This document shows, piece by piece, positions 5,880-45,321 of a DNA stretch of 64,000 bases (the stretch's first letter is position 1; each line of letters starts with the position of its first letter). Source of the DNA: an uncultured Paracoccaceae bacterium (lineage in GTDB: Bacteria; Pseudomonadota; Alphaproteobacteria; Rhodobacterales; Rhodobacteraceae). The DNA lies in NCBI GenBank assembly GCA_947495295.1, contig CANLYJ010000010.1, forward strand, positions 1 through 64,000, written 5' to 3'. The notes beneath the pieces are model-generated. The model was given only the letters and a program-made list of their open reading frames with translations. It ran no database searches and had not been told where the DNA came from. The position numbers and the translations under genes were made by a program.

Positions 5880-5992
5880 TCAAAAAGCCGCAGCTGGCCC
5901 AAAACCCCGGCAGGCCATAATGATCCCCGGCGTTTCTGTTTACATTGTGCAGGCGGTTCGCTAACGAGGGGATGTTAGAAAGTGTGAGTGTT

Positions 5993-6724
5993 ATGAAAAA
6001 ATTTCTTCTTTTGTCTCTTTTGGCTTGTTTTACAGTATTTTCGGCCGGTGTCGCCTCTGCTGCGACAATCAATATCTACCAATCATCAGGTACAAAGATA
6101 CGATCATCGGCCGGTGTCGGCGAAAGCACGGCCACCGAAGGGCGCCATCTGGCTGGCTCTCTTGTGACGGTGACTTATGCGGATGGCACCACCGAAGATC
6201 TGGTCTGGCGCCGCGTTGGCCGCTACTCGCTCGGCGGTGCCTATGGCAGTGACATCACAATTTCGCAAAACGGTGGCCCGATGGTCATCGATGCCCGCAA
6301 GACCGTCAGCGCGATCTATATCGATCTGGCGCCGTCCAATACGATTTTCGATATCGTCGATACCCGCGGCAATCCTGATCCGACTGCCAGCACACCATCA
6401 ACAAGCTTTGGCACCCCGTTTTCCATCGAACGCGGTGGTGACGGCCTGACCGGGCAGATTGATGTGACCTATTCCGGTATCGTCAATATTGCCGGGCATG
6501 CCGCTGTTGGGGATATCTATACCCGTATGCTGGTTGATTTTTCTGGTCTGACCAGTGGCGGCTTTCTGGGCCGGATGCGCGTCGAAGGTGACACGGATTC
6601 ACTGGCTGACAATGCTGTCATGTCCGTTGTCCCCCTGCCTGCCGGTCTGCCCCTGCTGATTGCGGGTCTGGCCATGTTCGGGTTCATGCGCAACCGCCGC
6701 AAGGCCGCCCTCGCGATTGCCTGA
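5993..6724 (+). CDS. VPLPA-CTERM sorting-domain protein (exosortase substrate)
   Basis: A 243-residue exported protein. The start at ATG 5993 puts a textbook signal peptide at the N terminus (MKKFLLLSLLACFTVF, then ASAA). In-frame upstream ATGs at 5945 and 5972 would bury it. The middle is a small beta-rich domain with no family I recognise. The C terminus carries VVPLPAGLPLLIAGLAMFGF followed by RNRRK: the VPLPA motif, one hydrophobic helix and a basic tail that define VPLPA-CTERM proteins. Established knowledge: these are processed in the inner membrane by XrtD-type exosortases. A matching exosortase is encoded at 33027-34634 in this window, so enzyme and substrate are on the same replicon. 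Function of the mature protein is unknown; a biofilm or EPS-associated surface role is inference. Confidence 0.9.
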   Translation: MKKFLLLSLLACFTVFSAGVASAATINIYQSSGTKIRSSAGVGESTATEGRHLAGSLVTVTYADGTTEDLVWRRVGRYSLGGAYGSDITISQNGGPMVIDARKTVSAIYIDLAPSNTIFDIVDTRGNPDPTASTPSTSFGTPFSIERGGDGLTGQIDVTYSGIVNIAGHAAVGDIYTRMLVDFSGLTSGGFLGRMRVEGDTDSLADNAVMSVVPLPAGLPLLIAGLAMFGFMRNRRKAALAIA

Positions 6725-8905: not shown

Positions 8906-10477
8906 ATGCCCCGTTTTTCTGACCGAAGCTTTTTCATCATCCTTGTTGCAACGCTTGTCTTTGCAACGCTCTACCGGCTTTACCCGCTTGTGCTGGGTGA
9001 AGAGGCGCTGGCGCAGGCCTTCATGACCGAAGACGGTTATCTGATGCTGACCATTGCCCGCAACATGGCCATTGGGCTGGGCATGTCGGTGTCTGACGGT
9101 ACGATTGCCAGTAATGGTGTGCAGCCGATGGCAACCTTCCTTTTTGCTGGTTCTTATCTGGTGACCGGTGGTGACAAGGTCGCCGGGCTATGGGGTGTGC
9201 AACTGACCGGAGCGATCATCGCCGTGATCGGGATTTTCACGGTCCGCGCCTTGGCCCGGGTGTTGCTGGCCCCGCAGGATGCCGCCCCGATCTGGCCATG
9301 GCTGGTGGCCACGATGTGGTTTGTCAGCCCGCTGCTGCTGCTGCATACGATGAACGGGCTGGAAACCGGGCTTTATACCGTGATGGTGACGCTGAGCCTG
9401 GTGTTGTTCGCCCGGCTTTTGCACAAGGGTGATGCGGCTGGTCTGGCGGATCGCATGCTGTTGGGGGCGGCCTGTGGGGTCACCTTTCTGGCACGCAACG
9501 ATGCGGTGTTCCTGATCGGGGCGATCGGGCTGGTCTGGTTATCGCATGCGTTGATCACCCGCCGCCGCCCGGTCGGCGCCGTGATTGCCGAACTGATCCC
9601 CCCTGCCCTGCTGGTGGTTCTGATCGCATCGCCCTGGCTGATCAATAACTACGTGAATTTCGGATCCATCGTGCCGGTCAGCGGTACGGCACAATCGCTA
9701 AGCGGCGGATTGGCAAGGAATGCTGATATCCTGCCCGCTGTGCTGTTCGAATACGTCTTTCCGATGCTGCCTGTGCCGGTGCGGCTGCAATATGCCCCTG
9801 CCTTCATGATCTGCGCCAGCATCTTGGTTTTCATCATTCTGGCCAGTTTTGTTCTGCAAGTCTGGCGCCGGGGCGGCACCGCCCGCCATGTCGTGATGGC
9901 TTATCTGATCTTTGCCCTGTTGATGTGCCTTTATTACGGGTTCTATTTTGGCGCGGGCTGGTTTCTGAGCCGCTATCTATCCCCCCTTGCCCCGCTTTTG
10001 ATCACCGCCACCCTGTCGGTTGCCCTGTCACTGGCGCGCTGGCTGGTCCCGACCCGGGCCGCAGGTGCCATCTATACGCTGGGCCTTTTGAGTATCGTGC
10101 TGTGCATTGCCCTGCTGGGCCGCTACCTGCTGCCCGGCACCAAGGAGCAGGGCCATTTTCAGGTGGTCGACTGGGTAACAGAAAACGTAGCTGCGGAAAC
10201 ATGGGTCGGGGCAGTCCAAACCGGCACGCTGGGCTATTGGCATGACAGGACCATCAATCTGGATGGTAAGGTCAATCCCGCCGCCTTGCAGGCACAGCTG
10301 ACCGAAGGCGATGTGCTGGACTATGTGCTGCGCAGTCAAATCACCTATCTGGCCGATTGGGAAGGCATTGCCTATTGGGTCACAACGGCCAACCGGGGCA
10401 ACACGGCATTCAGCGACAGCTTTGCCGTTGTGGTCCATGACGTGCCCGGCAATCTTGCCGTGCTGAAACGCCAGTGA
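8906..10477 (+). CDS. Polytopic GT-C-type membrane glycosyltransferase
   Basis: A 523-residue protein with a first transmembrane helix at residues 8-27 and roughly 10-12 further hydrophobic segments, ending in a soluble C-terminal domain of about 110 residues. The first external loop contains FMTEDGYLMLTIARNMAIG, the acidic pair followed by a conserved helix seen in lipid-phosphate-sugar-dependent GT-C enzymes (PMT/ArnT/AftB-like). SNGVQPM follows a few residues later. It shares overall layout with the protein at 37135-38685. GT-C enzymes use polyprenyl-phosphate sugars on the periplasmic face. The nearby UbiA-GtrA-DprE1-DprE2 cassette would supply such a donor, so this is a candidate for the transferase that consumes it (inference). 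Confidence 0.7.
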   Translation: MPRFSDRSFFIILVATLVFATLYRLYPLVLGEEALAQAFMTEDGYLMLTIARNMAIGLGMSVSDGTIASNGVQPMATFLFAGSYLVTGGDKVAGLWGVQLTGAIIAVIGIFTVRALARVLLAPQDAAPIWPWLVATMWFVSPLLLLHTMNGLETGLYTVMVTLSLVLFARLLHKGDAAGLADRMLLGAACGVTFLARNDAVFLIGAIGLVWLSHALITRRRPVGAVIAELIPPALLVVLIASPWLINNYVNFGSIVPVSGTAQSLSGGLARNADILPAVLFEYVFPMLPVPVRLQYAPAFMICASILVFIILASFVLQVWRRGGTARHVVMAYLIFALLMCLYYGFYFGAGWFLSRYLSPLAPLLITATLSVALSLARWLVPTRAAGAIYTLGLLSIVLCIALLGRYLLPGTKEQGHFQVVDWVTENVAAETWVGAVQTGTLGYWHDRTINLDGKVNPAALQAQLTEGDVLDYVLRSQITYLADWEGIAYWVTTANRGNTAFSDSFAVVVHDVPGNLAVLKRQ

Positions 10478-10493: not shown

Positions 10494-11384
10494 ATGATGG
10501 AACTGAGCGCATCTGACTATGCAGCCGCCCGCGCACATCTGCTGGGCGAGGATGCAACAGGGCTGATCCGGTTCATGGCCCATCAAAGCGTGGGCAGCAA
10601 AGACGCGGAATTTCCCGATACGGTGGCGGAACTGGCGCAAAATCTTGGCTGGATTGATCCCGTAACCGGCATGCGCACCACATTGGGGATCCTGATTAGC
10701 GATTCCTGCCGCGAATATCTGTTCTGGAAAGAACGCGATCAGCGCCTGCCTTTTGAAGACGCCCTGCCGCATCTGGCCCGGACCACGTTTCAGGACAAAT
10801 ATATCGCTGAAATCGGCGCGGGCATGGGGGTGAACCTGATGTCACTGGCAGGCACCGCAGACCGGCTTTGCGGGGTTGAACCGGTCGCGGCCTATGCCCA
10901 GATGGGCCAGATTTTACGTGACCGTGAAGGCACCACGGATATCGAGATCAAGACCGGCGGCGCCGAAGGTCTGCCCTTTGCCGATCAGGAACTTGATCTG
11001 GTCTTATGCGTATCAGCGCATCAGTATTTTGACATCCACCCTGCCTTGGCCGAGATCGCCCGCGTGACCAAACCCGGGGGTGAACTGATCATCATCGGCA
11101 ATACGCTGGGCCATTATGGCTGGGATTTTGGCAAACAGGTGATCCGCAACCGGGGTCGTGGGTTGAAAAGCTATGTCATGACATTGGTTAATACGGTCAG
11201 CTATCAATTGCTGGGGCGGCGGATTTTGGTCAATCGCAGCGGGTTTTCAACGGCAAGACCGATCTACCCGACAGCCGCCGCCATGACACGCTGGTTACAT
11301 GCGGTTGGTTTTGAAACCCTTGCCGCCCCACAGCGGGCTGAAAATGAAACCTGTTTTTATGTAAGACGCCGGGAGGATGATTAG
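10494..11384 (+). CDS. SAM-dependent methyltransferase
   Basis: A 296-residue protein starting at the first of two tandem ATG codons, with GGGAAAGGG upstream. Motif I of class I methyltransferases is visible as YIAEIGAGMGVNLMSLAG near residue 100, the acidic end of strand 2 as CGVEPV, and the later motifs as LPFADQELDLVLCVSAHQYF and VTKPGGELIIIGN. The first 90 residues are an additional domain that I do not recognise. The gene starts 16 bp after the GT-C gene, so the two are probably cotranscribed. A sugar O-methyltransferase role in EPS decoration is inference; a lipid or small-molecule acceptor cannot be excluded. Confidence 0.75.
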   Translation: MMELSASDYAAARAHLLGEDATGLIRFMAHQSVGSKDAEFPDTVAELAQNLGWIDPVTGMRTTLGILISDSCREYLFWKERDQRLPFEDALPHLARTTFQDKYIAEIGAGMGVNLMSLAGTADRLCGVEPVAAYAQMGQILRDREGTTDIEIKTGGAEGLPFADQELDLVLCVSAHQYFDIHPALAEIARVTKPGGELIIIGNTLGHYGWDFGKQVIRNRGRGLKSYVMTLVNTVSYQLLGRRILVNRSGFSTARPIYPTAAAMTRWLHAVGFETLAAPQRAENETCFYVRRREDD

Positions 11385-11518: not shown

Positions 11519-12958
11519 ATGGATATTACCCATTTGAAAGGTCAGCGCATTCTGGCCGTTGATCTGGATGGAACGCTGCTGCGGTCAGATATGCTGTTTG
11601 AAAGCTTCTGGTCGGCCACCAGTCAGGACTGGCGTGTGCCTGTGCAGGCGGGCCTTGCCCTGTCAAAAGGGCGTGCCGCGCTCAAACGCAGCCTGTCGAC
11701 CAAGATGAATGTCGATGTGACCACCCTGCCCTATGACGCGCAGGTGATCGCCTATATCGAGGCATGGCGCGCAGATGGCGGTGCTGCTATTCTGGTGACC
11801 GCGTCTGATGATAGTATTGCCCAGGATATCGCCGCCCATCTGGGTATTTTTGACGCCGTGCAAGGCTCTGACGGGACAAGAAACCTCAAATCGGCGGAAA
11901 AAGCCGCCTTTCTGACCGAACATTTCGGCAAGGGTGGCTATGCCTATATGGGCGATGCCGACGCCGACATACCGGTCTGGGAAAACGCGCAAAAAGCCGT
12001 GACCGTCAATTTGAAGGGCCCATTGCGCCAGCGGGTTGATAAGCTGGGGGTCGAGGTCGAACATCTGGACACTGCACAAACCGGGCTACGCGATTACCTC
12101 AAGGCGATCCGGGTGCATCAATGGCTGAAAAACCTGCTGGTCTTTCTGCCGATGTTTGCCGCCCATCAGCTGGACATGGTGACAGTCACCCAAAGCCTGC
12201 TGGCTTTTGTGATCTTTTCCATGGTGGCATCCAGCATCTATGTGCTGAATGATTTGCTGGATCTGCGGTCTGACCGGGCGCATCCGCGCAAACGCGAACG
12301 CCCCTTTGCCGCCGGTACGATCCCCATTGCCCATGCCACATTTATGATTGCCGGCCTGATGGGGGCCGGGTTGATCCTGTCGCTGTTTCTGGGTTGGTAT
12401 TTCCTGCTGGTCATGCTGATTTATTTCGCGGTGACAACGGCTTATTCGCTTTGGCTGAAACGCAAGGCGATTGTCGATATCGGCACGCTGGCGGGGCTTT
12501 ACACGATCCGTATTGTCGCGGGGGCCGTGGCCACCGGCATTCCACTGTCGATGTGGCTTTTGGCATTTTCCGTCTTTTTCTTCTTTTCGCTGGCCACGGT
12601 GAAACGGCAGGCAGAGCTGACGGATAGTGCCGCACGCGGCAAGCTGAAAGCATCCGGTCGCGGTTATCTGGTGGATGACCTGCCGGTGCTGGTGATGATG
12701 GCTGTCGCCTCTGGCTATGTGTCCATTCTGGTGCTGGCGCTTTATATCCAGTCGCCTTTCGTTTCAAAGCTATATGGCACGCCCAAGGTGCTGGGGGTGA
12801 TCTGTGGCGTGCTGCTTTACTGGGTGTCGCGGGTGATCCTGTTGGCGCATCGCGGCCAGATGCATGACGACCCGGTGGTGTTTGCCGCAAGGGACCGCAC
12901 CAGCCAGCTTTGCGCGCTGGTGATCATTGCGGTGGCCTTTGGCGGGGCCTTCCTGTGA
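11519..12958 (+). CDS. HAD phosphatase-UbiA prenyltransferase fusion (DPPR-synthase-like)
   Basis: A 479-residue two-domain protein. Residues 1-200 are a HAD hydrolase: AVDLDGTLL (nucleophile Asp15, acid Asp17), VTASDD, and YMGDADADIPVW with the Mg-binding acids. Residues 205-479 are a UbiA-family membrane prenyltransferase with NDLLDLRSDRAHPRKRERP and the second motif KAIVDIGTLAGLYTIRI. The N-D-x-x-D-x-x-x-D-R-x-H-P-x-K-R-x-R-P signature is that of mycobacterial 5-phospho-ribosyl-1-pyrophosphate:decaprenyl-phosphate transferase (Rv3806c), not of quinone-pathway UbiA. The next genes encode GtrA, DprE1-like and DprE2-like proteins, which supports this. Inference: UbiA transfers phosphoribose to polyprenyl phosphate and the fused HAD domain removes the 5'-phosphate, a step done by a separate protein in mycobacteria. 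The stop overlaps the next start (GTGA). Confidence 0.8.
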   Translation: MDITHLKGQRILAVDLDGTLLRSDMLFESFWSATSQDWRVPVQAGLALSKGRAALKRSLSTKMNVDVTTLPYDAQVIAYIEAWRADGGAAILVTASDDSIAQDIAAHLGIFDAVQGSDGTRNLKSAEKAAFLTEHFGKGGYAYMGDADADIPVWENAQKAVTVNLKGPLRQRVDKLGVEVEHLDTAQTGLRDYLKAIRVHQWLKNLLVFLPMFAAHQLDMVTVTQSLLAFVIFSMVASSIYVLNDLLDLRSDRAHPRKRERPFAAGTIPIAHATFMIAGLMGAGLILSLFLGWYFLLVMLIYFAVTTAYSLWLKRKAIVDIGTLAGLYTIRIVAGAVATGIPLSMWLLAFSVFFFFSLATVKRQAELTDSAARGKLKASGRGYLVDDLPVLVMMAVASGYVSILVLALYIQSPFVSKLYGTPKVLGVICGVLLYWVSRVILLAHRGQMHDDPVVFAARDRTSQLCALVIIAVAFGGAFL

Positions 12959-13377
12959 GCGGGGCGCGCATTGCCATTCTTTACGCGCTTTTCGCCGTTG
13001 TGGCGACGGTGATCAATCTGGGCATCCAGCGGATTGTGCTGTCATGGAATAACGATGTTCTGGGTTTCGCCATTGCCATTTTCTGCGGCACATTGGCCGG
13101 GCTGGTGGTGAAATATGTGCTGGATAAGCGCTGGATCTTTGCCGATGACAGTACCGGCATCAAAGCCCATGGGCAGAAATTCACCCTTTATACGATCATG
13201 GGCCTTGTCACGACGGCGATTTTCTGGGGCACGGAAACCGCGTTCTGGCTGATCTGGAAGACGGATATGATGCGCGAGTTGGGTGCCGTGCTGGGCCTGT
13301 CTGTGGGCTATGTGGTCAAATATTTCCTCGACCGGCGCTTTGTCTTTCAACCCCGTGAAGAGGCGGCGCTGTCATGA
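12955..13377 (+). CDS. GtrA-family membrane protein (putative polyprenyl-P-sugar flippase)
   Basis: A 140-residue protein starting at GTG 12955, whose last two bases begin the TGA of the UbiA gene (GTGA overlap). A longer frame from 12910 would run inside the upstream gene. Four hydrophobic segments, KYVLDKRWIF after the second helix and KYFLDRRFVF at the C terminus are typical of GtrA. GtrA proteins are thought to move or help move polyprenyl-phosphate-linked sugars across the inner membrane. In mycobacteria a GtrA protein (Rv3789) is encoded next to dprE1 and dprE2, the same neighbourhood as here. Confidence 0.85.
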   Translation: MSGARIAILYALFAVVATVINLGIQRIVLSWNNDVLGFAIAIFCGTLAGLVVKYVLDKRWIFADDSTGIKAHGQKFTLYTIMGLVTTAIFWGTETAFWLIWKTDMMRELGAVLGLSVGYVVKYFLDRRFVFQPREEAALS

Positions 13378-14699
13378 CGGATCTGTCCGGCTGGGGTGGC
13401 TTTCCCTCACATCCCGCGACCTTGGCCAACCCGGTCACGCAAGCCGATCTGGCCCGCGCCATTGCGGATGGGGCCGTGATTGCCCGGGGCAATGGCCGGG
13501 CTTACGGCGATAGCGCTATCGGGCTGCGCCAGACCGTGCTGATGCATGGGCTGAACCACATGATCAGCTTTGACCGGCAAAGCGGGTTTCTGGTGGCTGA
13601 GGCCGGCGTGCTTTTGCGTGATGTCATCACCGCGTTTCTGCCGCATGGCTGGTTTCCCCCCGTCACACCGGGCACGAAATTCGTGACCCTGGGCGGGATG
13701 ATTGCCGCTGATGTGCATGGCAAGAACCACCATAAGGATGGCAGTTTCCGCAATTTCGTCGATTGGCTGGATGTGATGGATGCAAACGGTGTGGTGCATC
13801 ATTGTAACCGGACCGAAAATGCCCAGCTGTTTGAATGGACGATCGGCGGGATGGGGCTGACCGGAGTGATCCTGCGCGCTGGTATCCGGCTGCGCCCGGT
13901 GCCATCCGCCTGGATCCGGCAGACATCCCAGGCCCTGCCCAATCTTGATGCGGTGATCACCGCCTTTGAAGGGGCGGATGCGGCCACCTATTCGGTGGCC
14001 TGGATTGATTGTGTCAGCCGGGGTGCATCATTGGGCCGGTCGATCCTGATGCTGGGCGAACATGCCACCCCGGATGCGCTATCAGATGATGCGGCCCGTT
14101 ATCCATTTGAAATTCCTGATAAAACAAAACGTACTGTGCCCTTTGCGATGCCTTTCAGCCTGCTGAACAGCCTGTCGGTCAGGGCGTTTAACGGGCTTTA
14201 TTACTGGAATGGTCGGCGCAAGGCCGGGGTCAGCTTTGTCGATTATGACACGTATTTCTATCCGCTGGATGCCATTCTGGGCTGGAACAAGATCTATGGC
14301 AGGCGCGGCTTCATGCAGTTTCAATGTGTCCTGCCACTTGAGACCGCGCGCGACGGGCTGCGCGCCTTGCTGAAGGCCACGTCGCTGGCCGGGGCCGGGT
14401 CATTCCTGGCGGTGCTGAAACGGTTCGGCCCGCAAGACAGCGCCTTTTCCTTCCCGATGCTGGGTTACACATTGGCGCTGGATTTCCCCGCCACCCCCCG
14501 CATGATCGCGCTGATGCGCAAGCTGGATCAGATCACGCTGGAGCATGGCGGCCGGTTCTATCTCGCCAAGGATAGCCGCATGGACCCTGACACGCTGCAT
14601 GCTTCGGACCCGCGGGTCGCAGAATTCAAACAGATGCGCCAGGCATTCGGGGCAACCGATGCTTTTCAATCAAAACAATCTGAAAGGCTCTTTCTATGA
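13374..14699 (+). CDS. DprE1-like FAD oxidoreductase (polyprenyl-P-ribose 2'-oxidase)
   Basis: A 441-residue flavoenzyme starting with ATGA overlapping the gtrA stop. The N-terminal FAD-binding domain has ARGNGRAYGDSAIG and GGMIAADVHGKNHHKDGSF; His115 aligns with the active-site His region of DprE1. The C-terminal ALO-like domain has LKRFGPQDSAFSFPMLGY and GGRFYLAKDSR, where Lys399 matches the catalytic Lys (K418) of the mycobacterial enzyme. The position of mycobacterial Cys387 (from memory, GWNICVDF) is Ala368 here (GYTLALDF), so the residue attacked by benzothiazinones is absent. Family knowledge: oxidises polyprenylphosphoryl-ribose to the 2'-keto intermediate. The adjacent DprE2-like gene would complete epimerisation to arabinose. 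Confidence 0.85.
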   Translation: MTDLSGWGGFPSHPATLANPVTQADLARAIADGAVIARGNGRAYGDSAIGLRQTVLMHGLNHMISFDRQSGFLVAEAGVLLRDVITAFLPHGWFPPVTPGTKFVTLGGMIAADVHGKNHHKDGSFRNFVDWLDVMDANGVVHHCNRTENAQLFEWTIGGMGLTGVILRAGIRLRPVPSAWIRQTSQALPNLDAVITAFEGADAATYSVAWIDCVSRGASLGRSILMLGEHATPDALSDDAARYPFEIPDKTKRTVPFAMPFSLLNSLSVRAFNGLYYWNGRRKAGVSFVDYDTYFYPLDAILGWNKIYGRRGFMQFQCVLPLETARDGLRALLKATSLAGAGSFLAVLKRFGPQDSAFSFPMLGYTLALDFPATPRMIALMRKLDQITLEHGGRFYLAKDSRMDPDTLHASDPRVAEFKQMRQAFGATDAFQSKQSERLFL

Positions 14700-15433
14700 G
14701 CAAGGGAACATTGCTGCTTTTGGGCGCAAAATCCGATATTGGCCGCGCTATTGCGCATCGCTTTGCCGCAGCCGGTTATGATATCCAACTGGCCGCGCGC
14801 GATAGCGACACGCTGGAGGCCACAAAAACCGATCTGGCATTGCGGCATAATATTGCGGTCAGCGCCCATGATTTTGATGTGTTGCAGACCGACACCCATG
14901 CCGGTTTTGTCGATGCCCTGCCTGCCCTGCCCGATATCGTGGTCTGTGCCATCGGGTTGATGGGCGACCAGATCGCAAATGAACAGGATTTCGAGGCCGC
15001 CACCCGTGTGATGCGTAGCACTTATGAAGGACCAGCACATATTCTGGGCCTTCTGGCCAATCGCTTTGACGCGCGCGGGTCCGGGCAGATCGTGGGGATC
15101 AGTTCAGTTGCGGGCAATCGCGGGCGGGCCAAGAATTACGTCTATGGATCGGCCAAGGCCGGGTTTACCGCCTATCTGTCGGGCTTACGCAACCGGATGG
15201 CCAAGCGGGGCATTCACGTGATGACCGTGCTGCCCGGCTTTGTGAATACCCAGATGACGGCTGGCATGGACCTGCCGGAAAAATTGACTGCTGAACCCGA
15301 AGAGGTGGCGACAGCCGTGTTCAACGGGCTGCGCAAGGGGCGCAATATCATCTATGTGCGTTCAATCTGGTTTGTGATCATGACCATTATCGGGTCGATC
15401 CCGGAACGGATTTTCAAGAAGATGAATATCTGA
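14696..15433 (+). CDS. DprE2-like short-chain reductase (polyprenyl-P-2-keto-ribose reductase)
   Basis: A 245-residue SDR starting with an ATGA overlap on dprE1. It has a nucleotide-binding LLLGAKSDIGRAIAHRF (G-x-x-x-x-G variant with Ser-Asp), ISSVAGNRGRAKNYVYGSAK (Ser, Tyr and Lys of the active site) and VLPGFVNTQMTAGM. The C terminus, IPERIFKKMNI, resembles the membrane-proximal end of mycobacterial DprE2 (Rv3791). Family knowledge: reduces the 2'-keto sugar-phospholipid to the arabino epimer using NAD(P)H. It is the last gene of a four-gene, translationally coupled set; a hairpin overlaps its stop codon. Confidence 0.85.
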   Translation: MSKGTLLLLGAKSDIGRAIAHRFAAAGYDIQLAARDSDTLEATKTDLALRHNIAVSAHDFDVLQTDTHAGFVDALPALPDIVVCAIGLMGDQIANEQDFEAATRVMRSTYEGPAHILGLLANRFDARGSGQIVGISSVAGNRGRAKNYVYGSAKAGFTAYLSGLRNRMAKRGIHVMTVLPGFVNTQMTAGMDLPEKLTAEPEEVATAVFNGLRKGRNIIYVRSIWFVIMTIIGSIPERIFKKMNI

Positions 15434-15451
15434 CAGGGCGGCCCTGTCAGA
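15429..15451. terminator. Hairpin between convergent dprE2-like and membrane-protein genes
   Basis: A perfect 11-bp inverted repeat (TCTGACAGGGC / GCCCTGTCAGA around a central G) contains the stop codons of both converging genes. There is no strong T tract on either side, so it is a bidirectional hairpin of probable terminator function. Confidence 0.55.
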
Positions 15452-16601
15452 ACACATCACCCAGCAGGAAATAGGACAGGAACCGGGGCCAAAGCCAACT
15501 GGCCCCGGCCAGATGCGTTGGCGCCCAAAGCAATGCTGCAAAAAGAAAACCTGCCACAGGCAGCGGATGCGGGACAGCTGCCAGCGTGAACCGCCGCGCC
15601 CCCAGCCCGGCCAGCACGATGATCAGCACGCTGAAGACATGCAGTTGCAACCAGCGCCCCCAATCCAGGCCCACCAGATAAAGCGGCAAAAACGGCAGCC
15701 CTGCCAAAACGGATAGCCAGATCGCCTGCCGCTTTTGCGCCAGATGCCAAAGCGCAAAAACCAGCGGCGCAAAAGCCCCCAGATAAACAAGCCCCATCAT
15801 GCCCAGAATGCGCACATTGCCGTTCATTGCGATGATACGTTCCATCGCAGTGGCCATGTCGTCTTCAAGCCATGCAATCGCCCCGTTGCACATGCCCGGA
15901 TCCAGCCCACGTTCCAGCAGCGGGGCACAGACCAGCCCGGCATCCGCCACATAGGCATAGGTGATCCCGTATAAAACCGCCGGTATCGCGCAAAGGATCA
16001 CAAGGCCCAGCCCGATCTGATGGCGCGGGTTGATCTGGTCCCGAAACATCCAGAAAACCCCCACAAGCAAGGGCAGAAACAGAATATTCGCCTCATGCCC
16101 CAGCACCCCCAGCACAAAAACCACTGCTCCCAGAAAGACGATCCAGATACGGTGGCTGATCAGGCCTGACAGGCAAAGCAATATCGCCAGATAGGCCAGC
16201 GTTTCCTTGCGCAGTGACCCTTGCGGGTCAGCCGCCCATGCGATGATGAAAAGCCCCGGTGACAGGATGATCAGCGCCAGCAACATGGGCTGCCTGACCT
16301 GTATGACCACATAGAGCAGTGCCACATAGATGATGATGACACAGATGATCTGCAGGATCACAACGGTTGTCAGCGGGCTGACCGCCAGCAGATCCGCTAT
16401 ATCCAATATCCAGCTGCCAAGATGTCCGCGCCGGGTTTCAACCAGGTCGCGGTTGATCAGCCAGTCGCCCTGTTTCCAGTCATTGCCCGTCCCCTGGATG
16501 CCTTCCGACAGCAGGCGCAGGATCACATAGACCCCGGATATGGCGGCCATCCCGAACATGGACAGATAGGCCAGCCATCTTGCCCAGGCCCGGTCGGTCA
16601 C
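15447..16601 (-). CDS. Polytopic inner-membrane protein, paralogue of the one at 56735-57883
   Basis: A 384-residue protein with about 10 hydrophobic helices, starting at GTG 16601 that overlaps the TGA of the upstream ATPase gene (GTGA). I do not recognise a named family. The paralogue at 56735-57883 shares the loop WKQGDWLIN followed by RRG--GS near the N terminus, a central Cys-containing loop, and a DWGRW motif in the last third. The conserved charged loop between helices 1 and 2 and the DWGRW motif are the likely functional sites. Translational coupling to an exosortase-system ATPase and the EPS context suggest a polymerase-like or export role (inference). A simple transporter is also possible. 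Confidence 0.6.
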   Translation of the reverse strand: MTDRAWARWLAYLSMFGMAAISGVYVILRLLSEGIQGTGNDWKQGDWLINRDLVETRRGHLGSWILDIADLLAVSPLTTVVILQIICVIIIYVALLYVVIQVRQPMLLALIILSPGLFIIAWAADPQGSLRKETLAYLAILLCLSGLISHRIWIVFLGAVVFVLGVLGHEANILFLPLLVGVFWMFRDQINPRHQIGLGLVILCAIPAVLYGITYAYVADAGLVCAPLLERGLDPGMCNGAIAWLEDDMATAMERIIAMNGNVRILGMMGLVYLGAFAPLVFALWHLAQKRQAIWLSVLAGLPFLPLYLVGLDWGRWLQLHVFSVLIIVLAGLGARRFTLAAVPHPLPVAGFLFAALLWAPTHLAGASWLWPRFLSYFLLGDVF

Positions 16602-17668: not shown

Positions 17669-18259
17669 GTGAATTTACACGTGCATATTGAACAGACAGA
17701 TTTAGAGGGTGTTTTCATCCTCACGCCGCAGCGTTTTGGGGATACCCGCGGTTTTTTCAGTGAAAGTTGGAACCGTCAGCGGATGGCAGATGCCGGGTTC
17801 GATTACGACTGGGTGCAGGACAATCATTCGCTCTCTGCCCAGGTTGGTACGGTACGCGGTTTGCATTGCCAGACCCCGCCGCACGCCCAGGACAAGCTGG
17901 TCCGCTGTGGCCGTGGCGCCTTGTTCGATGTGGCTGTCGATATCCGCAAAGGATCCCCCAGTTACGGCCAATGGGTCGGCGTTGATCTGACATTTGAAAA
18001 TGGTCGGCAGCTTTTGGTTCCGGCGGGGTTCCTGCATGGGTTTGTCACCCGCGCCCCCGATACCGAGATCATCTATAAATGTTCCGATAATTACGCCCCC
18101 GATTGTGACCGTGCCGTCCGGTTTGACAGCCCCGAGATCGGGATCGACTGGGGGTTGGACGCCCCCGCCATCCTGTCCGACAAGGATCGCAACGCCCCGA
18201 CCCTGTCCCAGTTCGACAGTCCTTTTACCTATGAAGCCCCAACAAAGGAGCCATCATGA
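17669..18259 (+). CDS. rfbC: dTDP-4-dehydrorhamnose 3,5-epimerase
   Basis: A 196-residue cupin enzyme, third step of dTDP-L-rhamnose synthesis. RmlC hallmarks: [41 protein letters not shown] with the catalytic His, and [13 protein letters not shown]. The start is GTG 17669, preceded by GGAAGTG at good spacing; a second GTG at 17681 lacks a ribosome binding site. It opens the order rfbC-rfbB-rfbD-rfbA, each gene overlapping the next by four bases. The 180-bp gap to the divergent ATPase gene holds a TTGACG at 17614 but no clear -10, so I do not call a promoter. Confidence 0.93.
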
Positions 18260-19299
18260 AACTGCTTGTCACCGGGGGGGCAGGTTTTATCGGCTCTGCC
18301 GTGGTCCGTCTGGCGGTGGCCCGGGGGCATCATGTTATCAATCTGGATGCGCTGACCTATGCGGCCTGTCTGGACAATGTCGCCGCGGTTGCCGACAGCC
18401 CGCTTTATGATTTTGTGCAGGCCGATATTCGTGACCGCCCTGCCCTGGATGCTGCCTTTGCCACCTATCAGCCCGACGCAGTGATGCATCTGGCCGCAGA
18501 AAGCCATGTGGACAGGTCCATTGACGGCCCCGGCGATTTCATCGCCACCAATATCACCGGCACCTATAACATGCTGGAAGCCGCGCGCAGCTATTGGGTG
18601 CAGGCCGGTAAGCCCGATACATTCCGTTTTCATCATATTTCTACGGATGAGGTGTTTGGCAGCCTTGGCCCGACCGGCCAGTTTTCCGAAGATACCCCCT
18701 ATGATCCGCGCAGCCCCTATTCGGCCTCCAAAGCCTCAAGCGATCATCTGGTGCGGGCCTGGGCGGAAACCTATGGCCTACCTGTTGTTCTGACCAATTG
18801 TTCCAATAATTACGGCCCTTACCATTTCCCTGAAAAGCTGATCCCGGTGGTGATCCTGAATGCGTTGGCGGGCAAACCCCTGCCGATCTATGGCGACGGG
18901 TCCAATATACGGGACTGGCTTTATGTCGAAGACCATGCCGATGCGCTGTTGCTGGTGGTGCAAAAGGGGCAATTGGGCCGGTCGTATAATATCGGCGGCG
19001 AGAATGAGCGCAGCAATCTGGAACTGGTGCAGACCCTTTGCGGGATCCTTGATGAGCTGCGTCCGAAGAATGCCGGATCGTACGCGGATCAGATCACATT
19101 TGTCACCGACCGCCCCGGTCACGATGCCCGCTATGCCATCGACCCATCCCGGATGCGCGATGAACTGGGCTGGCGCCCGTCGGTCACCGTCGAAGAAGGG
19201 CTGCGTCTGACCGTGCAATGGTATCTGGACAATGAAAAATGGTGGCGTGCCCTGCAGCAGCGCCATGGGGTGGGCGAACGGCTTGGGGTTGGATCGTGA
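18256..19299 (+). CDS. rfbB: dTDP-glucose 4,6-dehydratase
   Basis: A 347-residue extended SDR, second step of dTDP-L-rhamnose synthesis. It has the NAD-binding [17 protein letters not shown], the LDALTYA strand, the catalytic HISTDEVFG (Thr-Asp-Glu), [15 protein letters not shown] (Tyr-x-x-x-Lys) and [17 protein letters not shown], a full RmlB signature. Its length is normal for the family. The start ATGA overlaps the rfbC stop. Next to repA-parAB modules this operon is characteristic of roseobacter biofilm plasmids. Confidence 0.95.
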
Positions 19300-20165
19300 A
19301 GGCACTGGTTTTTGGCACAACCGGCCAATTGGCAAGGGAACTGGCCCGCAGGGCTGGTCCGGAAATCACGCTGGACATGTATGGCCGCGATATGGCTGAT
19401 TTCACCGACCCGGCAGCCTGCGCCGCATTAGTCGCGGCAAGTGATGCCGATGTGGTGATCAACGCCGTGGCCTATACCGCCGTGGACAAGGCCGAGGACG
19501 AAGAAGCACTGGCCACCCTGATCAACGCCACCACCCCCACGGCCATTGCCCATGCCGCAGCGGCCCGCCGCCTGCCATTTGTGCATGTCTCGACCGATTA
19601 CGTGTTTGACGGGTCCGGGGACCAGCCATGGGTGCCTGACGCCCCTACAGCGCCGCTGGGGGCCTATGGGCGCAGCAAACTGGCCGGCGAGGCGGGGATT
19701 ACCGCCGCGGGCGGTCCCCATGCCATTCTGCGCACGTCCTGGGTGGTATCGGCCCATGGCCGGAATTTCGTGAAAACCATGCGTCAGCTGGGGCAAAGCC
19801 GCGACCGGTTGACCATTGTGGCCGATCAGATCGGCGGGCCAACCCCGGCGGCTGCATTGGCCGATGCCTGTCTGGCCGCCGCTGCGGGGCTGCTGGCCGA
19901 TCCGGGCAAGGCGAGCATCTATCATCTGGCGGGGCACCCTGATGTCAGTTGGGCCGATTTCGCACGCGAAATTTTTGCACAAAGCGGGATCAGTTGCACG
20001 GTGACGGATATCCCGTCCAGCGATTATCCGACCCCGGCCGCGCGGCCTTTGAATTCCCGGTTGGATTGTGCTGCATTCGAACAGGCTTTTGGCCTGCCCC
20101 GCCCCGATTGGCGGCAAGGCCTGCGTGACATTCTGAACGATCTGGAAAAGGGGACGCCATCATGA
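19296..20165 (+). CDS. rfbD: dTDP-4-dehydrorhamnose reductase
   Basis: A 289-residue SDR, last step of dTDP-L-rhamnose synthesis. It has the N-terminal [15 protein letters not shown] dinucleotide loop, [29 protein letters not shown], and YGRSKLAGE containing Tyr-x-x-x-Lys. The start is GTG 19296, overlapping the rfbB TGA in a GTGA arrangement; the open frame upstream from 19239 lies inside rfbB and is not needed. Length agrees with RmlD proteins. Confidence 0.93.
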
Positions 20166-21028
20166 CAAGCCGCAAAGGCATTATTCTGGCAGGCGGATCC
20201 GGCACCCGGCTTTATCCGATCACATTGGGTGTCTCAAAACAGCTTTTGCCGATCTATGACAAGCCGATGATCTATTACCCGCTGACCGCCCTGATGCTGG
20301 CGGGCATCCGCGAGATTGCGGTGATCACCACGCCGCAGGATCAGGACCAGTTCCAGCGGATGCTGGGCGATGGATCACAGTTCGGAATATCGTTGACTTA
20401 TATCGCCCAGCCATCACCCGACGGGCTGGCGCAGGCCTTCATCCTGGCCGAGGATTTTCTGGCAGGCGCACCATCGGCCCTGGTGCTGGGCGACAATATC
20501 TTTTTCGGGCACGGGCTGCCGGAACTGATGGAAGCCGCCGATGGGCAGGCCGTGGGCGCCACCGTCTTTGGCTATCAGGTGGTGGACCCAGAACGCTATG
20601 GCGTGGTGGATTTTGATGAAAATGGCACCGTGCGCGGGATCGTTGAAAAGCCGGATGTGCCGCCATCAAATCATGCGGTTACCGGGCTATATTTCGTGGA
20701 TGGCACCGCCCCTGAAAAGGCACGCGCAGTCACCCCATCGGACCGGGGAGAGTTGGAAATCACATCCCTGCTGGAGATGTATCTGGCCGAAGGCAGCCTG
20801 ACCGTGCAGCGCATGGGCCGTGGCTATGCCTGGCTGGATACCGGCACCCATGCCAGCCTGCTGGATGCGGGCAATTTCGTGCGCACCATCGAAGAACGGC
20901 AAGGCCAGCAGATCGGCAGCCCCGAAGAGGTGGCATTCTATCTGGGCTGGATCAGCCGCGATGATCTGACCCGCGAGGCGCAGAAATACGCCAAGAATGC
21001 CTATGGCACCTATCTGGACAAGCTGTGA
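20162..21028 (+). CDS. rfbA: Glucose-1-phosphate thymidylyltransferase
   Basis: A 288-residue nucleotidyltransferase, first step of dTDP-L-rhamnose synthesis. Signatures are [16 protein letters not shown] near the N terminus, [46 protein letters not shown] and [16 protein letters not shown], all typical of RmlA. It is the fourth gene of the coupled operon (ATGA overlap with rfbD). A 36-bp gap separates it from galE, which is probably cotranscribed. Confidence 0.95.
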
Positions 21029-26066: not shown

Positions 26067-26906
26067 GTGATTATTAGTCCACAACACCAGTTTGTTTTTG
26101 TCCATATCCCCAAATGCGCCGGGACATCCGTGCGCCATCAACTGCGCCAATGTGACCCTGATCATATCTTTCTGGGCCGTCCGGGCGACCACCCGGTGTT
26201 GGGCCAGATCGATTATGCCCATATCCCGATGGCGCAGCTGCGCGATCATTTTCCCGATTATTTCGCGGATGTGCAGCGCTATGATGCCTTCGCCCTTGTC
26301 CGGTCGCCGCTGGATCGGTTCGGGTCCAGCCTGCGGCAGTTGATGTGGCAATATGAAGAACGCCCAATGACGCTGATCCCGCGTGATGAGCTGCGCGAAA
26401 CCACACTGCGGTTGCTGGATGAGGTGGCCGCCCAGATCGACAACCCAGGCTATCAATATATCTTTTTCACCCGGCAATCTGACTACATCTTTGCAGGCGA
26501 GGAACAGGTGATCGATCACGTGCTGCCGATCTCGCTTGTACCAGAAATTATGGATTACTTTTCTGTCCGCACCGGGGTCGCGCTGGACCGTGAACGCCGT
26601 AGCAACCAGAATGTCGAGCTGCGCTTTAAAAGCATCGGTGGGCTGGCTTACGGGGTGAACCGCTTTGTGCGGCGCGCCCTGCCAGCGGGCCTGCATTCGC
26701 GTATCAAGGGGGCGGCGCTCAAACTGATTGCCCGCAAACAGACCGCAGCCGAGGCCAGTGGTTTGCTGGACATGCCAGAGGTGCAGGATTTCGTCGCAGA
26801 ACATTACGCCCGCGATGCGCAGATTTTCGAGATGATTGCCGGACAGACCGAAAACCTGCGCAGCCAGTTGCAGGCCGCCGCACTTTCGCGCATCGATCTG
26901 GCCTGA
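26067..26906 (+). CDS. Sulfotransferase-family protein 1 (tandem pair)
   Basis: A 279-residue protein starting at GTG 26067. FVFVHIPKCAGTSVRHQL is the PAPS 5'-phosphosulfate-binding motif of carbohydrate sulfotransferases of the heparan-sulfate 2-O type, and FALVRSPLDRFGSSLRQ is the 3'-phosphate-binding motif. It transfers sulfate from PAPS, most likely to a sugar of the EPS. It is the first of three consecutive sulfotransferase genes and is closely related to the next one along its whole length (shared QYEERPMTLIP, DHPVLG-IDY), indicating tandem duplication. PAPS would come from the enzyme at 43579-45288. Confidence 0.82.
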   Translation: MIISPQHQFVFVHIPKCAGTSVRHQLRQCDPDHIFLGRPGDHPVLGQIDYAHIPMAQLRDHFPDYFADVQRYDAFALVRSPLDRFGSSLRQLMWQYEERPMTLIPRDELRETTLRLLDEVAAQIDNPGYQYIFFTRQSDYIFAGEEQVIDHVLPISLVPEIMDYFSVRTGVALDRERRSNQNVELRFKSIGGLAYGVNRFVRRALPAGLHSRIKGAALKLIARKQTAAEASGLLDMPEVQDFVAEHYARDAQIFEMIAGQTENLRSQLQAAALSRIDLA

Positions 26907-26919
26907 GAAGGAGAGCCTT

Positions 26920-27771
26920 GTGATTATCAGCCATAAGCACAAGTTTGTTTTTGTGCATATTCCCAAATGCGCCGGCACATCGATCCGCACCCAGATCCTG
27001 AAATCCGATCCTGACGCGACCGCCCTTGGCAAGCCGGGTGAACACCCCGTGTTGGGCACAATTGATTACGGCCATATCGCCCTTGATCTTTTGCGCGAAC
27101 ATTTCCCCGATCATGACCGCGACCTGCGCGCTTTTCAGTCCTTTGCCGTTGTGCGTGACCCGCTGGAACGGTTCGGATCTGCCCTGCGCCAGGTCCTGTG
27201 GCAATATGAAGAACGGCCCATGACCCTGATCCCACCGGAAGAGCTGCGCCAGAAGACCCTGGATATGCTGGACCGGATTGCTGCAGAAATTGATGCGCCA
27301 TCTGCCCCGTTCATCTTTTTCGCCCGCCAGGACAGTTTCATCTTTGATCAGGGCGAACAGGTGGTGGATCATCTGATCCCGCTGCCGCTGGTCAGTGATT
27401 TCATCGCCTATATGGCGCAGCGCACGGGCACCCCGATGGATAGCGGGATGCGCGCCAATCAGAATGTGAACCTACGCTTTAAAGGGGTGGGTGCGCTGGC
27501 CTATAAGGTCAATGGTTTCCTGCGCGCGCGCCTGCCATTGGGCCTGCATACGGCGATCCGCAAGGCAGCATTGGGCGTGCTGGCCGCCAAGGAGGATGCC
27601 GCACAGGCCAGTGGCGTGCTTGACCTGCCAGAGGTGCGCGCCTTTGTCGAAACCCATTACCAGCGTGATATTGAAATCTATACGTCAGTGATGGCGGAGG
27701 TGGATGCGTTGCAAGCCGGATTACAGGCGGGTGATCTGTCAGATGTCACCCAGCAGATAGGGGCCGCATGA
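26920..27771 (+). CDS. Sulfotransferase-family protein 2 (tandem pair)
   Basis: A 283-residue paralogue of the preceding protein. GTG 26920 is chosen because AAGGAGA lies just upstream and the N terminus then aligns with the neighbour (VIISHKHKFVFVHIPKCAGTS versus MIISPQHQFVFVHIPKCAGTS); the longer frame from 26836 lies in the neighbour. It retains HIPKCAGTS for the 5'-phosphosulfate site and VVRDPLERFGSALRQ for the 3'-phosphate site. Both copies keep the binding residues, so both are probably active; divergence in the middle may reflect different acceptor sugars or positions (inference). Its stop overlaps the next start (ATGA). Confidence 0.82.
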   Translation: MIISHKHKFVFVHIPKCAGTSIRTQILKSDPDATALGKPGEHPVLGTIDYGHIALDLLREHFPDHDRDLRAFQSFAVVRDPLERFGSALRQVLWQYEERPMTLIPPEELRQKTLDMLDRIAAEIDAPSAPFIFFARQDSFIFDQGEQVVDHLIPLPLVSDFIAYMAQRTGTPMDSGMRANQNVNLRFKGVGALAYKVNGFLRARLPLGLHTAIRKAALGVLAAKEDAAQASGVLDLPEVRAFVETHYQRDIEIYTSVMAEVDALQAGLQAGDLSDVTQQIGAA

Positions 27772-28691
27772 TGGATATGCCTGCCCGCGCACCGGATTTC
27801 ATGATTGTTGGTGCGCCGAAATGCGCGACATCAAGCCTGCATCTGTTGCTGTTACAGCATCCCGATATCTTCATGTGTGATCCCAAGGAGCCGCATTTTT
27901 TCTGCACCGATTTTCCCGGGCTGGCCGAAGTGCCGGATGCGGCTGGCTATGATGCGCTTTTTGCGGATGCACCTATGGCGGCGAAATGGGGTGAGGCATC
28001 CGCACTTTATCTGTTCAGCCGGGATGCGGCCAAAAACATCCATGCCGCCAATCCAGACACAAAGATCATCCTGTCGATCCGCAACCCCGCAGATGCGGCG
28101 TTTTCCTGGTATCACCAGCTGCGTGACGGGTTTCGCGAAGATCAGGCTGATTTTGCAACAGCCTGGGATTTGCAGGAAGCAAGGGCAGGGGGCCAGCAAC
28201 TGCCATCCTACTGCCCGGAACCCGCACAGCTGCAATACGGACCGATCTATACCTATCATGACCAGATCAAACGCTATTTCGATGTCTTTGGCCGTGATGC
28301 GGTGAAGGTGTTGCGTGTCGAGGATATCAAGGCCGACCCGCAGAAGGTCATCGCCGATTTGCTGACATTCATTGGTGTTGATCCCTTTGCCGAAACTGTT
28401 GATCTGCCGCGCACCAATACCCGCCGCAAGGCGCGCTTTCCGGGGCTGAACCAGTTCCTGACATCGCCGCCCGCAATGCTGCGCCCGTTGATGACCCCGC
28501 TGAAACGCGGGCTGAATCTGATCGGGTTGAAACCCAGCGTGATCATGATGAAACATCTCAGCCAGAAAACCGATGCCGCCGAAACCCGGCTGGACCCTGA
28601 TATGCGGGCGCGACTGGTGGATTACTTTGCCGCCGATATCACCAAGCTGGAAACATTGCTGGATCAGGACCTGTCATCATGGCGCAGCTGA
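27768..28691 (+). CDS. Sulfotransferase-family protein 3 (PF00685-like)
   Basis: A 307-residue protein from a different sulfotransferase branch than its two neighbours: PDFMIVGAPKCATSSLHLLL holds the 5'-phosphosulfate loop, KEPHFFCTDF the conserved K-E-P-H-F/Y-F/Y block of bacterial and GAG-type enzymes, and IILSIRNPADAAFSWYHQL the 3'-phosphate-binding R-x-P...S motif. It overlaps the preceding gene by four bases and the following GT2 gene by 13, so all four are translationally coupled. The likely role is sulfation of a different EPS position. Confidence 0.88.
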   Translation: MMDMPARAPDFMIVGAPKCATSSLHLLLLQHPDIFMCDPKEPHFFCTDFPGLAEVPDAAGYDALFADAPMAAKWGEASALYLFSRDAAKNIHAANPDTKIILSIRNPADAAFSWYHQLRDGFREDQADFATAWDLQEARAGGQQLPSYCPEPAQLQYGPIYTYHDQIKRYFDVFGRDAVKVLRVEDIKADPQKVIADLLTFIGVDPFAETVDLPRTNTRRKARFPGLNQFLTSPPAMLRPLMTPLKRGLNLIGLKPSVIMMKHLSQKTDAAETRLDPDMRARLVDYFAADITKLETLLDQDLSSWRS

Positions 28692-34634: not shown

Positions 34635-34775
34635 GATAAAATGGCAACGCGAAAAAGGAACAAATACGAAGGCTGATCTTAGGCGAATTTGCCCGCCAAT
34701 ACCATGAAAAGCGGTTTCACAAAAACGTTCTTTCGACATCAGGGATGACAAGCTGCCAGATGTAAATCATAAGCG

Positions 34776-37038: not shown

Positions 37039-37134
37039 CGGTCACTTATAACATTGACAGAAGGTTAACAGCGCCTGACACTGGCCCGCATATTTAAGAA
37101 TGTTTTGCTTGTTAGTGTCAGGAAGGACCGCGGT

Positions 37135-43556: not shown

Positions 43557-43582
43557 GTAAGATGGGTTTAAACCCATCTTAC
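43557..43582. terminator. 26-bp perfect palindromic terminator between convergent genes
   Basis: GTAAGATGGGTTT is followed directly by its exact complement AAACCCATCTTAC. It lies 13 bp after the GT2 stop and includes the stop codon of the convergent sat/cysC gene, so it can end both transcripts. Confidence 0.75.
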
Positions 43583-45288: not shown

Positions 45289-45321
45289 GTAATACACTCT
45301 TAAACAAATGGATTCGGGTTT

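Follow-up and report, generated by a model that had tools for sequence, protein, structure and literature searches.

A gene cassette predicted to make lipid-linked D-arabinofuranose, with candidate GT-C transferases, on a roseobacter polysaccharide replicon

Here we describe a four-gene cassette on contig CANLYJ010000010.1 of an uncultured Paracoccaceae bacterium; the window analyzed comprises bases 1-64000 of this 71,594-bp contig. Four open reading frames (ORFs) on the forward strand form a chain at 11519-15433, with a 4-base overlap at each junction, and encode in order a HAD-UbiA fusion, a GtrA-family protein, a DprE1-like flavin adenine dinucleotide (FAD) oxidase and a DprE2-like short-chain dehydrogenase/reductase (SDR) (Table 1). 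The overlaps and the Pfam assignments bear out an earlier note on this DNA, which had described four overlapping genes of these kinds; the HAD phosphatase fused to the N terminus of UbiA had been overlooked. The GtrA gene has a GTG start at 12955 that overlaps the UbiA stop codon, the ORF as listed beginning upstream at 12910, and its product matches GtrA_DPMS_TM in Pfam. All four genes are under purifying selection: the ratio of nonsynonymous to synonymous substitution rates (dN/dS) was 0.04-0.09 in comparison with the same-genus genome G003, and 0.06-0.11 when Ruegeria sp. SCSIO 43209 was used instead. The gene order, domains, conserved residues, phylogeny and genomic association described here are established by sequence.

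Table 1. Features of the window discussed in the text
Feature	Coordinates	Strand	Basis
HAD phosphatase-UbiA fusion; predicted polyprenyl-phosphate 5-phosphoribosyltransferase and 5'-phosphatase, product polyprenyl-P-ribofuranose	11519..12958	+	Pfam, NCBIfam, 8j8j
GtrA-family membrane protein; predicted flippase for lipid-linked pentose	12955..13377	+	PF04138 E 6.7e-13; NF037976 172.8 bits (cut-off 50)
DprE1-like FAD oxidase; predicted 2'-oxidation of polyprenyl-P-ribofuranose	13374..14699	+	DprE1 structures, NF053785, tree with NoeH
DprE2-like SDR; predicted 2'-keto reduction to the arabino configuration	14696..15433	+	NF005489, NF053786
AftB-like GT-C glycosyltransferase (membrane protein); first candidate for arabinofuranose transfer (GT-C 8906)	8906..10477	+	
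Class I S-adenosylmethionine methyltransferase paired with GT-C 8906	10494..11384	+	Methyltransf_11
Second GT-C, recognizable by sequence as related to mycobacterial AftB; second candidate for arabinofuranose transfer (GT-C 37105)	37105..38685	+	
Third candidate, a GT-C-like membrane protein whose gene is convergent with the cassette (15447 protein)	15447..16601	-	
Paralogue of the 15447 protein, 36% identity	56735..57883	+	
rmlC, rmlB, rmlD, rmlA in that order (dTDP-L-rhamnose operon)	17669..21028	+	Pfam
Plasmid partition ATPase	23138-24523	-	AAA_31; partition_RepA 190.5 bits, below cut-off 348.45
RepA-type initiator	24915-25892	+	RPA PF10134 E 1.4e-99
Two sulfotransferases	26836..28691	+	Sulfotransfer_2, Sulfotransfer_1
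Exosortase XrtD	33027..34751	-	TIGR04152 634.8 bits (cut-off 400)
Bifunctional ATP sulfurylase/adenosine 5'-phosphosulfate kinase, supplying 3'-phosphoadenosine 5'-phosphosulfate (PAPS)	43579..45297	-	NF004040 1036.2 bits (cut-off 669)
VPLPA-CTERM protein, predicted to be an exosortase substrate; might be the glycan acceptor instead of the exopolysaccharide	5945..6724	+	TIGR03370 31.5 bits (cut-off 25.35)

Pfam analysis of the fusion protein placed HAD at residues 14-153 and UbiA at residues 208-445. The Rv3806c-type signature claimed earlier for the UbiA part stands: the motif NDLLDLRSDRAHPRKRERP begins at residue 244, and the closest solved structure is 8j8j, a decaprenyl-phosphate phosphoribosyltransferase (E 1.6e-31). 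Comparison with NCBIfam gave 625.8 bits with NF006088 (cut-off 351), which is named only UbiA family prenyltransferase, and 165, 145 and 136 bits with three decaprenyl-phosphate phosphoribosyltransferase models, all below their respective cut-offs of 207, 234 and 474. The predicted layout is that of ORF15, the proven polyprenyl-phospho-ribose synthase of Citrobacter youngae. Residues N244/D245/D248/D252, R363/E366 and D15 of the fusion correspond to N247/D248/D251/D255, R366/E369 and D18 of ORF15, an equivalence taken from the motif and a constant offset of 3. According to the available text of PMC11127046, changes at N247, D248, D251 and D255 abolish ORF15 activity in vitro, D251A being partly active in vivo; with D18A in the HAD domain the 5-phosphate is largely retained, but activity is not fully lost; and R366A and E369A are still active. 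Since a HAD phosphatase is fused to UbiA, the dephosphorylation step would be supplied within the cassette.

The DprE1-like protein matched mycobacterial DprE1 structures over nearly its whole length (266 bits), the next family being cytokinin dehydrogenase at 44 bits, and it is 37-38% identical to Rhodococcus and Nocardia DprE1. Alignment with DprE1 chain 4aut revealed that HGKNHH (position 115), QFQ, that is QxQ (315), and AKDSR (398) are retained, which we take to be DprE1 active-site motifs. Its Pfam domain, FAD_binding_4, is also found in FAD oxidases of the sugar-lactone or glycolate oxidase kind, and weak matches to lactone and other FAD oxidase models, glycolate oxidase among them, were seen (about 32-39.3 bits); were the protein such an enzyme, the gene group would be an unrelated operon. 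This is extremely improbable, given 398.9 bits with the NCBIfam DprE1 model NF053785 versus 39.3 bits with the best other NCBIfam model, the position of the protein in the DprE1 tree, and the linkage of DprE1 of this type to UbiA in 32/33 genomes (see below). Placement among lactone oxidases, which the earlier note had named as fatal to its reading, was thus not found, the lactone and FAD oxidase models reaching 33.8-39.3 bits. The DprE2-like protein carries adh_short in Pfam; its best NCBIfam match was NF005489 (345.5 bits, cut-off 267), with DprE2 second.

We placed the DprE1-like protein in a FastTree phylogeny of 38 sequences, from which near-duplicates and some relatives were omitted. NoeH of IRBG74 and of Sinorhizobium alkalisoli nested within a roseobacter cassette clade that contains the window protein, the Rhodococcus and Nocardia DprE1 proteins adjoined the whole group, and an FAD oxidase from the window's own genome lay far outside. 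Support within the roseobacter clade was uneven: the noe pair joined L057 at 0.83, and L053 and L057 at 0.99. Together with the structure and NCBIfam matches, this tree supports the Rv3806c/DprE1/DprE2-type chemistry that had been predicted for the cassette.

The noe genes provide the nearest functional precedent. Plasmids of S. alkalisoli and IRBG74 (recorded as Agrobacterium pusense) carry UbiA, GtrA, FAD oxidase, SDR and hypothetical protein genes in that order, close to nodABC in S. alkalisoli, and this group is the noe arabinosylation operon. In the available text of PMC5080398, noeCHOP serves Nod-factor D-arabinofuranosylation, deletion of noeP abolishes arabinosylation, and loss of an extra gene, noeN (p0343), a proposed phosphatase, only reduces it; noeC, noeH and noeO have been linked to the mycobacterial pathway (PMC2443382, available part), and noeCHOP is named in S. 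alkalisoli (PMC6689892, available part). Like noeC-N-H-O-P (noeCHOP in Azorhizobium, noeCNHOP in Rhizobium sp. IRBG74), the window genes run UbiA-GtrA-DprE1-DprE2, co-directional and overlapping, and the DprE1-like protein is 57-58% identical to rhizobial NoeH, in one clade. The noe operon is experimentally tied to D-arabinosylation, its acceptor being a lipo-chitooligosaccharide. It differs in that the window UbiA is fused to HAD, whereas the IRBG74 UbiA has no HAD match in Pfam. In IRBG74, the gene that separates UbiA from the DprE1 homologue (L009:4576-4998) belongs to the GtrA family. By gene order this gene would be noeN, because it fits the order noeC-N-H-O-P and because p0345 and the gene upstream of UbiA are both putative acyltransferases; the assignment of noeN in the literature then probably needs to change from phosphatase to GtrA-family flippase.

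The distribution of the cassette was examined in 195 genomes of the order; this sample is drawn largely from a single family and includes genomes related to each other as well as that of the window. E-value limits were 1e-8 for the 15447 family, 1e-15 for GT-C 37105, 1e-20 for GT-C 8906 and XrtD, and 1e-30 for UbiA and DprE1; distances were taken between listed start coordinates, with circular contigs handled as linear. A HAD-UbiA match was found in 79 genomes, a DprE1 match in 70 and both in 68. The best DprE1 match per genome fell into type A (n=33, 48-100% identity), which is the cassette type of the window, and type B (n=37, 38-45%). In 32/33 genomes a UbiA gene of the same orientation lay no more than 3 kb upstream of type-A DprE1, the exception being G180. 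With type-A DprE1 in 33/195 genomes, the cassette is common in the order; this distribution, the noe precedent and the pathway of PMC11127046 (available text) do not support a view of the locus as an isolated mycobacterial oddity. The full UbiA-GtrA-DprE1-DprE2 order recurred in 15 further mapped loci (L002, L006-L009, L077, L078, L081, L084-L087, L089, L090 and L102), of which L077 is the near relative G003; in L007 and L009 only the UbiA part of the fusion was matched, and in L081 about 1.5 kb separates GtrA from DprE1. A collection of 72,556 plasmid records contained 64 with a relative of DprE1 (E 1e-20) and 84 with one of HAD-UbiA (E 1e-30); Rhizobium contributed more of these than any other genus, 34 and 36, respectively.

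Variant arrangements were also observed. A divergent second DprE1-DprE2 pair, 36-41% identical to the window DprE1, occurs at L082, L083, L088, L092 and L094, is convergent with UbiA in L082, L083 and L088, and accounts for the best match to DprE1 in 37 of the 70 genomes that have one. In G180 the cassette is split across two replicons: on a chromosome-sized contig (L109:5900-8620), GtrA, DprE1 and DprE2 are accompanied by a short HAD-like segment and UbiA is unmatched, and UbiA-GtrA lies on a separate 140,681-bp contig (L105). On a megaplasmid of the cyanobacterium Kovacikia minuta (L005:103-5169), DprE2, DprE1, the UbiA part and a GT-C 8906 homologue (39.5%) are adjacent, and the association of the cassette with GT-C 8906 therefore extends beyond Proteobacteria.

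From these data, and following the logic of PMC11127046, as far as its available text goes, and of the mycobacterial pathway, we infer every catalytic step for this organism as well as the lipid involved, the linkage formed and the acceptor. The UbiA domain would move 5-phosphoribose from phosphoribosyl pyrophosphate onto polyprenyl phosphate (probably undecaprenyl phosphate), and the fused HAD domain would strip the 5'-phosphate to leave a ribofuranosyl lipid. Oxidation by the DprE1-like enzyme to a 2-keto intermediate and reduction by the DprE2-like enzyme would invert C2 to give polyprenyl-P-D-arabinofuranose, which GtrA would carry across the inner membrane. The GT-C proteins 8906-10477 and 37105-38685, and perhaps 15447-16601 and 56735-57883, would then transfer arabinofuranose to a periplasmic acceptor. 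We consider it very likely that the cassette makes a D-arabinofuranose donor, and the locus probably encodes the complete predicted pathway, from the lipid-linked donor to its transfer outside the cytoplasm.

The same reaction sequence is predicted as in the mycobacterial decaprenyl-P-arabinose pathway (Rv3806c, Rv3807c, DprE1, DprE2, Rv3789, AftB), which likewise has a DprE1-type FAD oxidase and a GT-C transferase, AftB, with three essential residues. Unlike that pathway, the window has a fused phosphatase of HAD type and no arabinogalactan context, and its DprE1-like protein has Ala368 opposite the cysteine of mycobacterial DprE1 (Cys387, which we take to be the benzothiazinone target). A general three-component pentofuranose pathway has been published, with DprE1/E2 homologues reported in candidate systems for arabinofuranose glycans (PMC11127046, available text). 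The window resembles the C. youngae O1/O2 systems of that paper in its HAD-UbiA fusion, equivalent active-site residues and GT-C final transferase, in C. youngae a GT136 enzyme, but the flippase there is MATE and here GtrA, and the O2 system is proposed to make xylose through a single SDR epimerase where the window has a DprE1/DprE2-like pair. Some points count against the predicted donor pathway. The DprE1-like protein falls below the equivalog cut-off of NF053785 (500), as does the DprE2-like protein below that of NF053786 (195.1 bits, cut-off 250), so 'DprE1-like' and 'DprE2-like' are the right wording; a single, very remote sequence, the own-genome FAD oxidase, roots the DprE1 tree; and the activity left in ORF15 D251A and D18A, as given in the available text, indicates that those residues are not strictly essential.

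The GT-C proteins are the candidate users of the donor. AftB has three essential residues, D62/R221/R372 (PMC12041299, available text), which are matched in the GT-C 37105 family by D45/R196/R334, invariant in 8/8 aligned sequences, and in the GT-C 8906 family by D43/R197/R356, invariant in 38/38 (alignment A1: the window sequence and 37 chosen from 120 listed homologues, 1144 having passed). Searched as a single sequence, GT-C 37105 matched no solved structure at E<=10, and with the family profile (A4) the PDB yielded a single match at E<=1, AftB 9dlf (E 4.4e-13). The gene begins at 37105, the start at 37135 given in the earlier note being an internal ATG. The GT-C 8906 family is tied to AftB only via profile comparison with the 37105 family and by fold. 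The 15447 family profile gave only chance matches in the PDB, and a model of the 15447 protein gave no match in a viral fold library at E<=0.001. In contrast to the otherwise similar noe operon, whose transferase is NoeP, no relation to NoeP was detected for GT-C 8906, GT-C 37105 or the 15447 protein by BLASTP, or for 8906 and 15447 also by profile, these comparisons covering part of the window. As NoeP relatives, the 15447 protein (BLASTP E 0.08, profile comparison probability 1%) and the GT-C 8906 family (profile comparison 0.2%) were both rejected.

Genome comparisons linked these families to the cassette. GT-C 8906 was found in 5/195 genomes of the order, with HAD-UbiA within 5.2 kb in 5/5; XrtD, used as an exosortase control, had HAD-UbiA within 10 kb in 2/60 genomes. 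GT-C 37105 was found in 7/195 genomes, 7/7 with UbiA and 6/7 with type-A DprE1, and a homologue immediately follows the cassette in G031 and UbiA-GtrA in G173. The 15447 family, comprising the 15447-16601 and 56735-57883 proteins, was found in 7/195 genomes, 7/7 with type-A DprE1. Across the three families Fisher p-values calculated without G003 were 1.3e-5 to 0.0006, ignoring relatedness of the genomes. GT-C 8906 and GT-C 37105 are thus uncharacterised families linked to the cassette, and with their AftB residues they are, as proposed earlier, likely users of its donor.

Several observations weigh against this assignment. GT-C 8906 matched nothing among solved structures by sequence, and its profile gave only a meaningless match (E 0.7). 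Among 200 genomes of the phylum the only homologue outside G000 and G003 was a distant one (28%) in G285, where the 20 kb examined contained no match to UbiA. The distance between the 37105 gene and UbiA ranges across genomes from 2 to 277 kb and is 25.6 kb in the window. Genomes with the exosortase are also weakly enriched for type-A DprE1 (16/60 versus 33/195, p 0.015), so the association of the GT-C families with the cassette may partly reflect exopolysaccharide plasmids only. GT-C 8906 stands beside HAD-UbiA without a local DprE1 at two loci, Jannaschia p1/G166 (the same 86,072-bp replicon) and G028:C6, and two Rhodovulum plasmids with GT-C 8906 and UbiA are not among the best 60 of 64 DprE1 matches. 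Because of such loci, the GT-C 8906 family may accept ribofuranose, which suggests that ribofuranose and arabinofuranose versions share one transferase family; C. youngae ORF12 is described as taking ribose and xylose donors alike (PMC11127046, available text). It could follow that the final sugar in the window is ribofuranose or another pentofuranose, with DprE1 and DprE2 acting elsewhere or C2 inversion incomplete. We regard this as very unlikely: the window has intact DprE1 and DprE2 genes, which purifying selection maintains and which share one overlapping unit with HAD-UbiA, and its DprE1 groups with NoeH of arabinosylating rhizobia.

The methyltransferase next to GT-C 8906 could have either the transferred sugar or the acceptor as its substrate. 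It was found beside GT-C 8906 in 4/5 loci having DprE1 (window, L002, L077 and L078; absent in L005 of Kovacikia) and was unmatched in three replicons without local DprE1 (L003, L004/L080 and L079); these loci are too few (4/5 versus 0/3) to conclude that it is a fixed mark of the arabinose version.

The setting of the cassette is that of an exopolysaccharide replicon, as the earlier note had held. In addition to the genes in Table 1, the window encodes a Wzx-like flippase, a weak O-antigen-ligase match and several GT2- and GT4-type transferases. It resembles roseobacter biofilm plasmids of the RepA-I type with a rhamnose operon, such as pInhi_D69 of P. inhibens (PMC4062626, available text), in having an RPA-type initiator, an rml operon, polysaccharide genes and a size of about 70 kb. 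No arabinose cassette is named for such plasmids in that text, which does not show that they lack one. A RepA-I plasmid with a rhamnose operon in the available text of PMC10090131 is likewise similar, the window initiator being classed only as RepA-type. The most likely acceptor would be the sulfated, rhamnose-containing exopolysaccharide encoded around the cassette, and we lean towards it with restrained confidence; sulfotransferases and a PAPS synthase are present, consistent with a sulfated polymer as the site of arabinofuranose.

The same donor may instead serve a protein sorted by the exosortase, a rival acceptor that deserves serious consideration. Both XrtD and a VPLPA-CTERM protein with VPLPAGLPLLIAGLAMFGFMRNRRK close to its C terminus are encoded on the window. 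The annotation of Ruegeria sp. SCSIO 43209 places a VPLPA-CTERM protein immediately upstream of the cassette, and that of Salipiger profundus shows two calcium-binding proteins after it. Arabinosylated pilins of Pseudomonas are reportedly known from earlier work. In Pseudomonas aeruginosa, the glycosylation of pilin has been proposed to draw on a lipid-linked arabinofuranose donor (PMC11127046, available text). However, XrtD is common without the cassette, UbiA occurring in only 30/60 XrtD genomes and close by in the two noted above, and the neighbourhood of the cassette is rich in polysaccharide genes. That arabinofuranose goes to such VPLPA-CTERM protein(s) or to another surface protein, rather than to the exopolysaccharide, is rather improbable.

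The cassette kind is already known; the new part is the AftB-like transferase families and the third (15447) family. Among openly licensed papers we found none that treats roseobacter, arabinofuranose and exopolysaccharide together, and a report elsewhere is possible; on lipid-linked pentose and AftB-type themes, the literature consisted of PMC11127046 and otherwise mainly mycobacterial and corynebacterial work. If the exopolysaccharide pathway is correct, D-arabinofuranose would be a common, transferable building block of roseobacter surface glycans, and uncharacterised membrane enzymes would become candidate arabinofuranosyltransferases with AftB-type active sites, testable in marine bacteria. 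A bolder possibility, which we hold tentatively and think unlikely, is that one donor cassette feeds up to four GT-C transferases, from two AftB-like families only distantly related to each other plus both copies of the third family, giving multi-enzyme D-arabinofuranosylation outside mycolic-acid bacteria and a plasmid-passed exopolysaccharide of a marine biofilm with branched or oligomeric, possibly methylated D-arabinofuranose as an arabinan-like side chain.

Two minor observations concern the 15447 protein and its paralogue. At 54326-56694, just before the paralogue at 56735, a GMC-type FAD oxidoreductase gene overlaps an SDR gene and resembles an oxidise-then-reduce pair; as a conserved second epimerase module this pair was rejected, since among six loci examined it stood beside the paralogue only in G003. 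At 16598-17488, with a 4-base overlap with 15447-16601, lies the gene of an ATPase similar to the one associated with XrtA/PEP-CTERM (263 bits, below the cut-off of 324.5).

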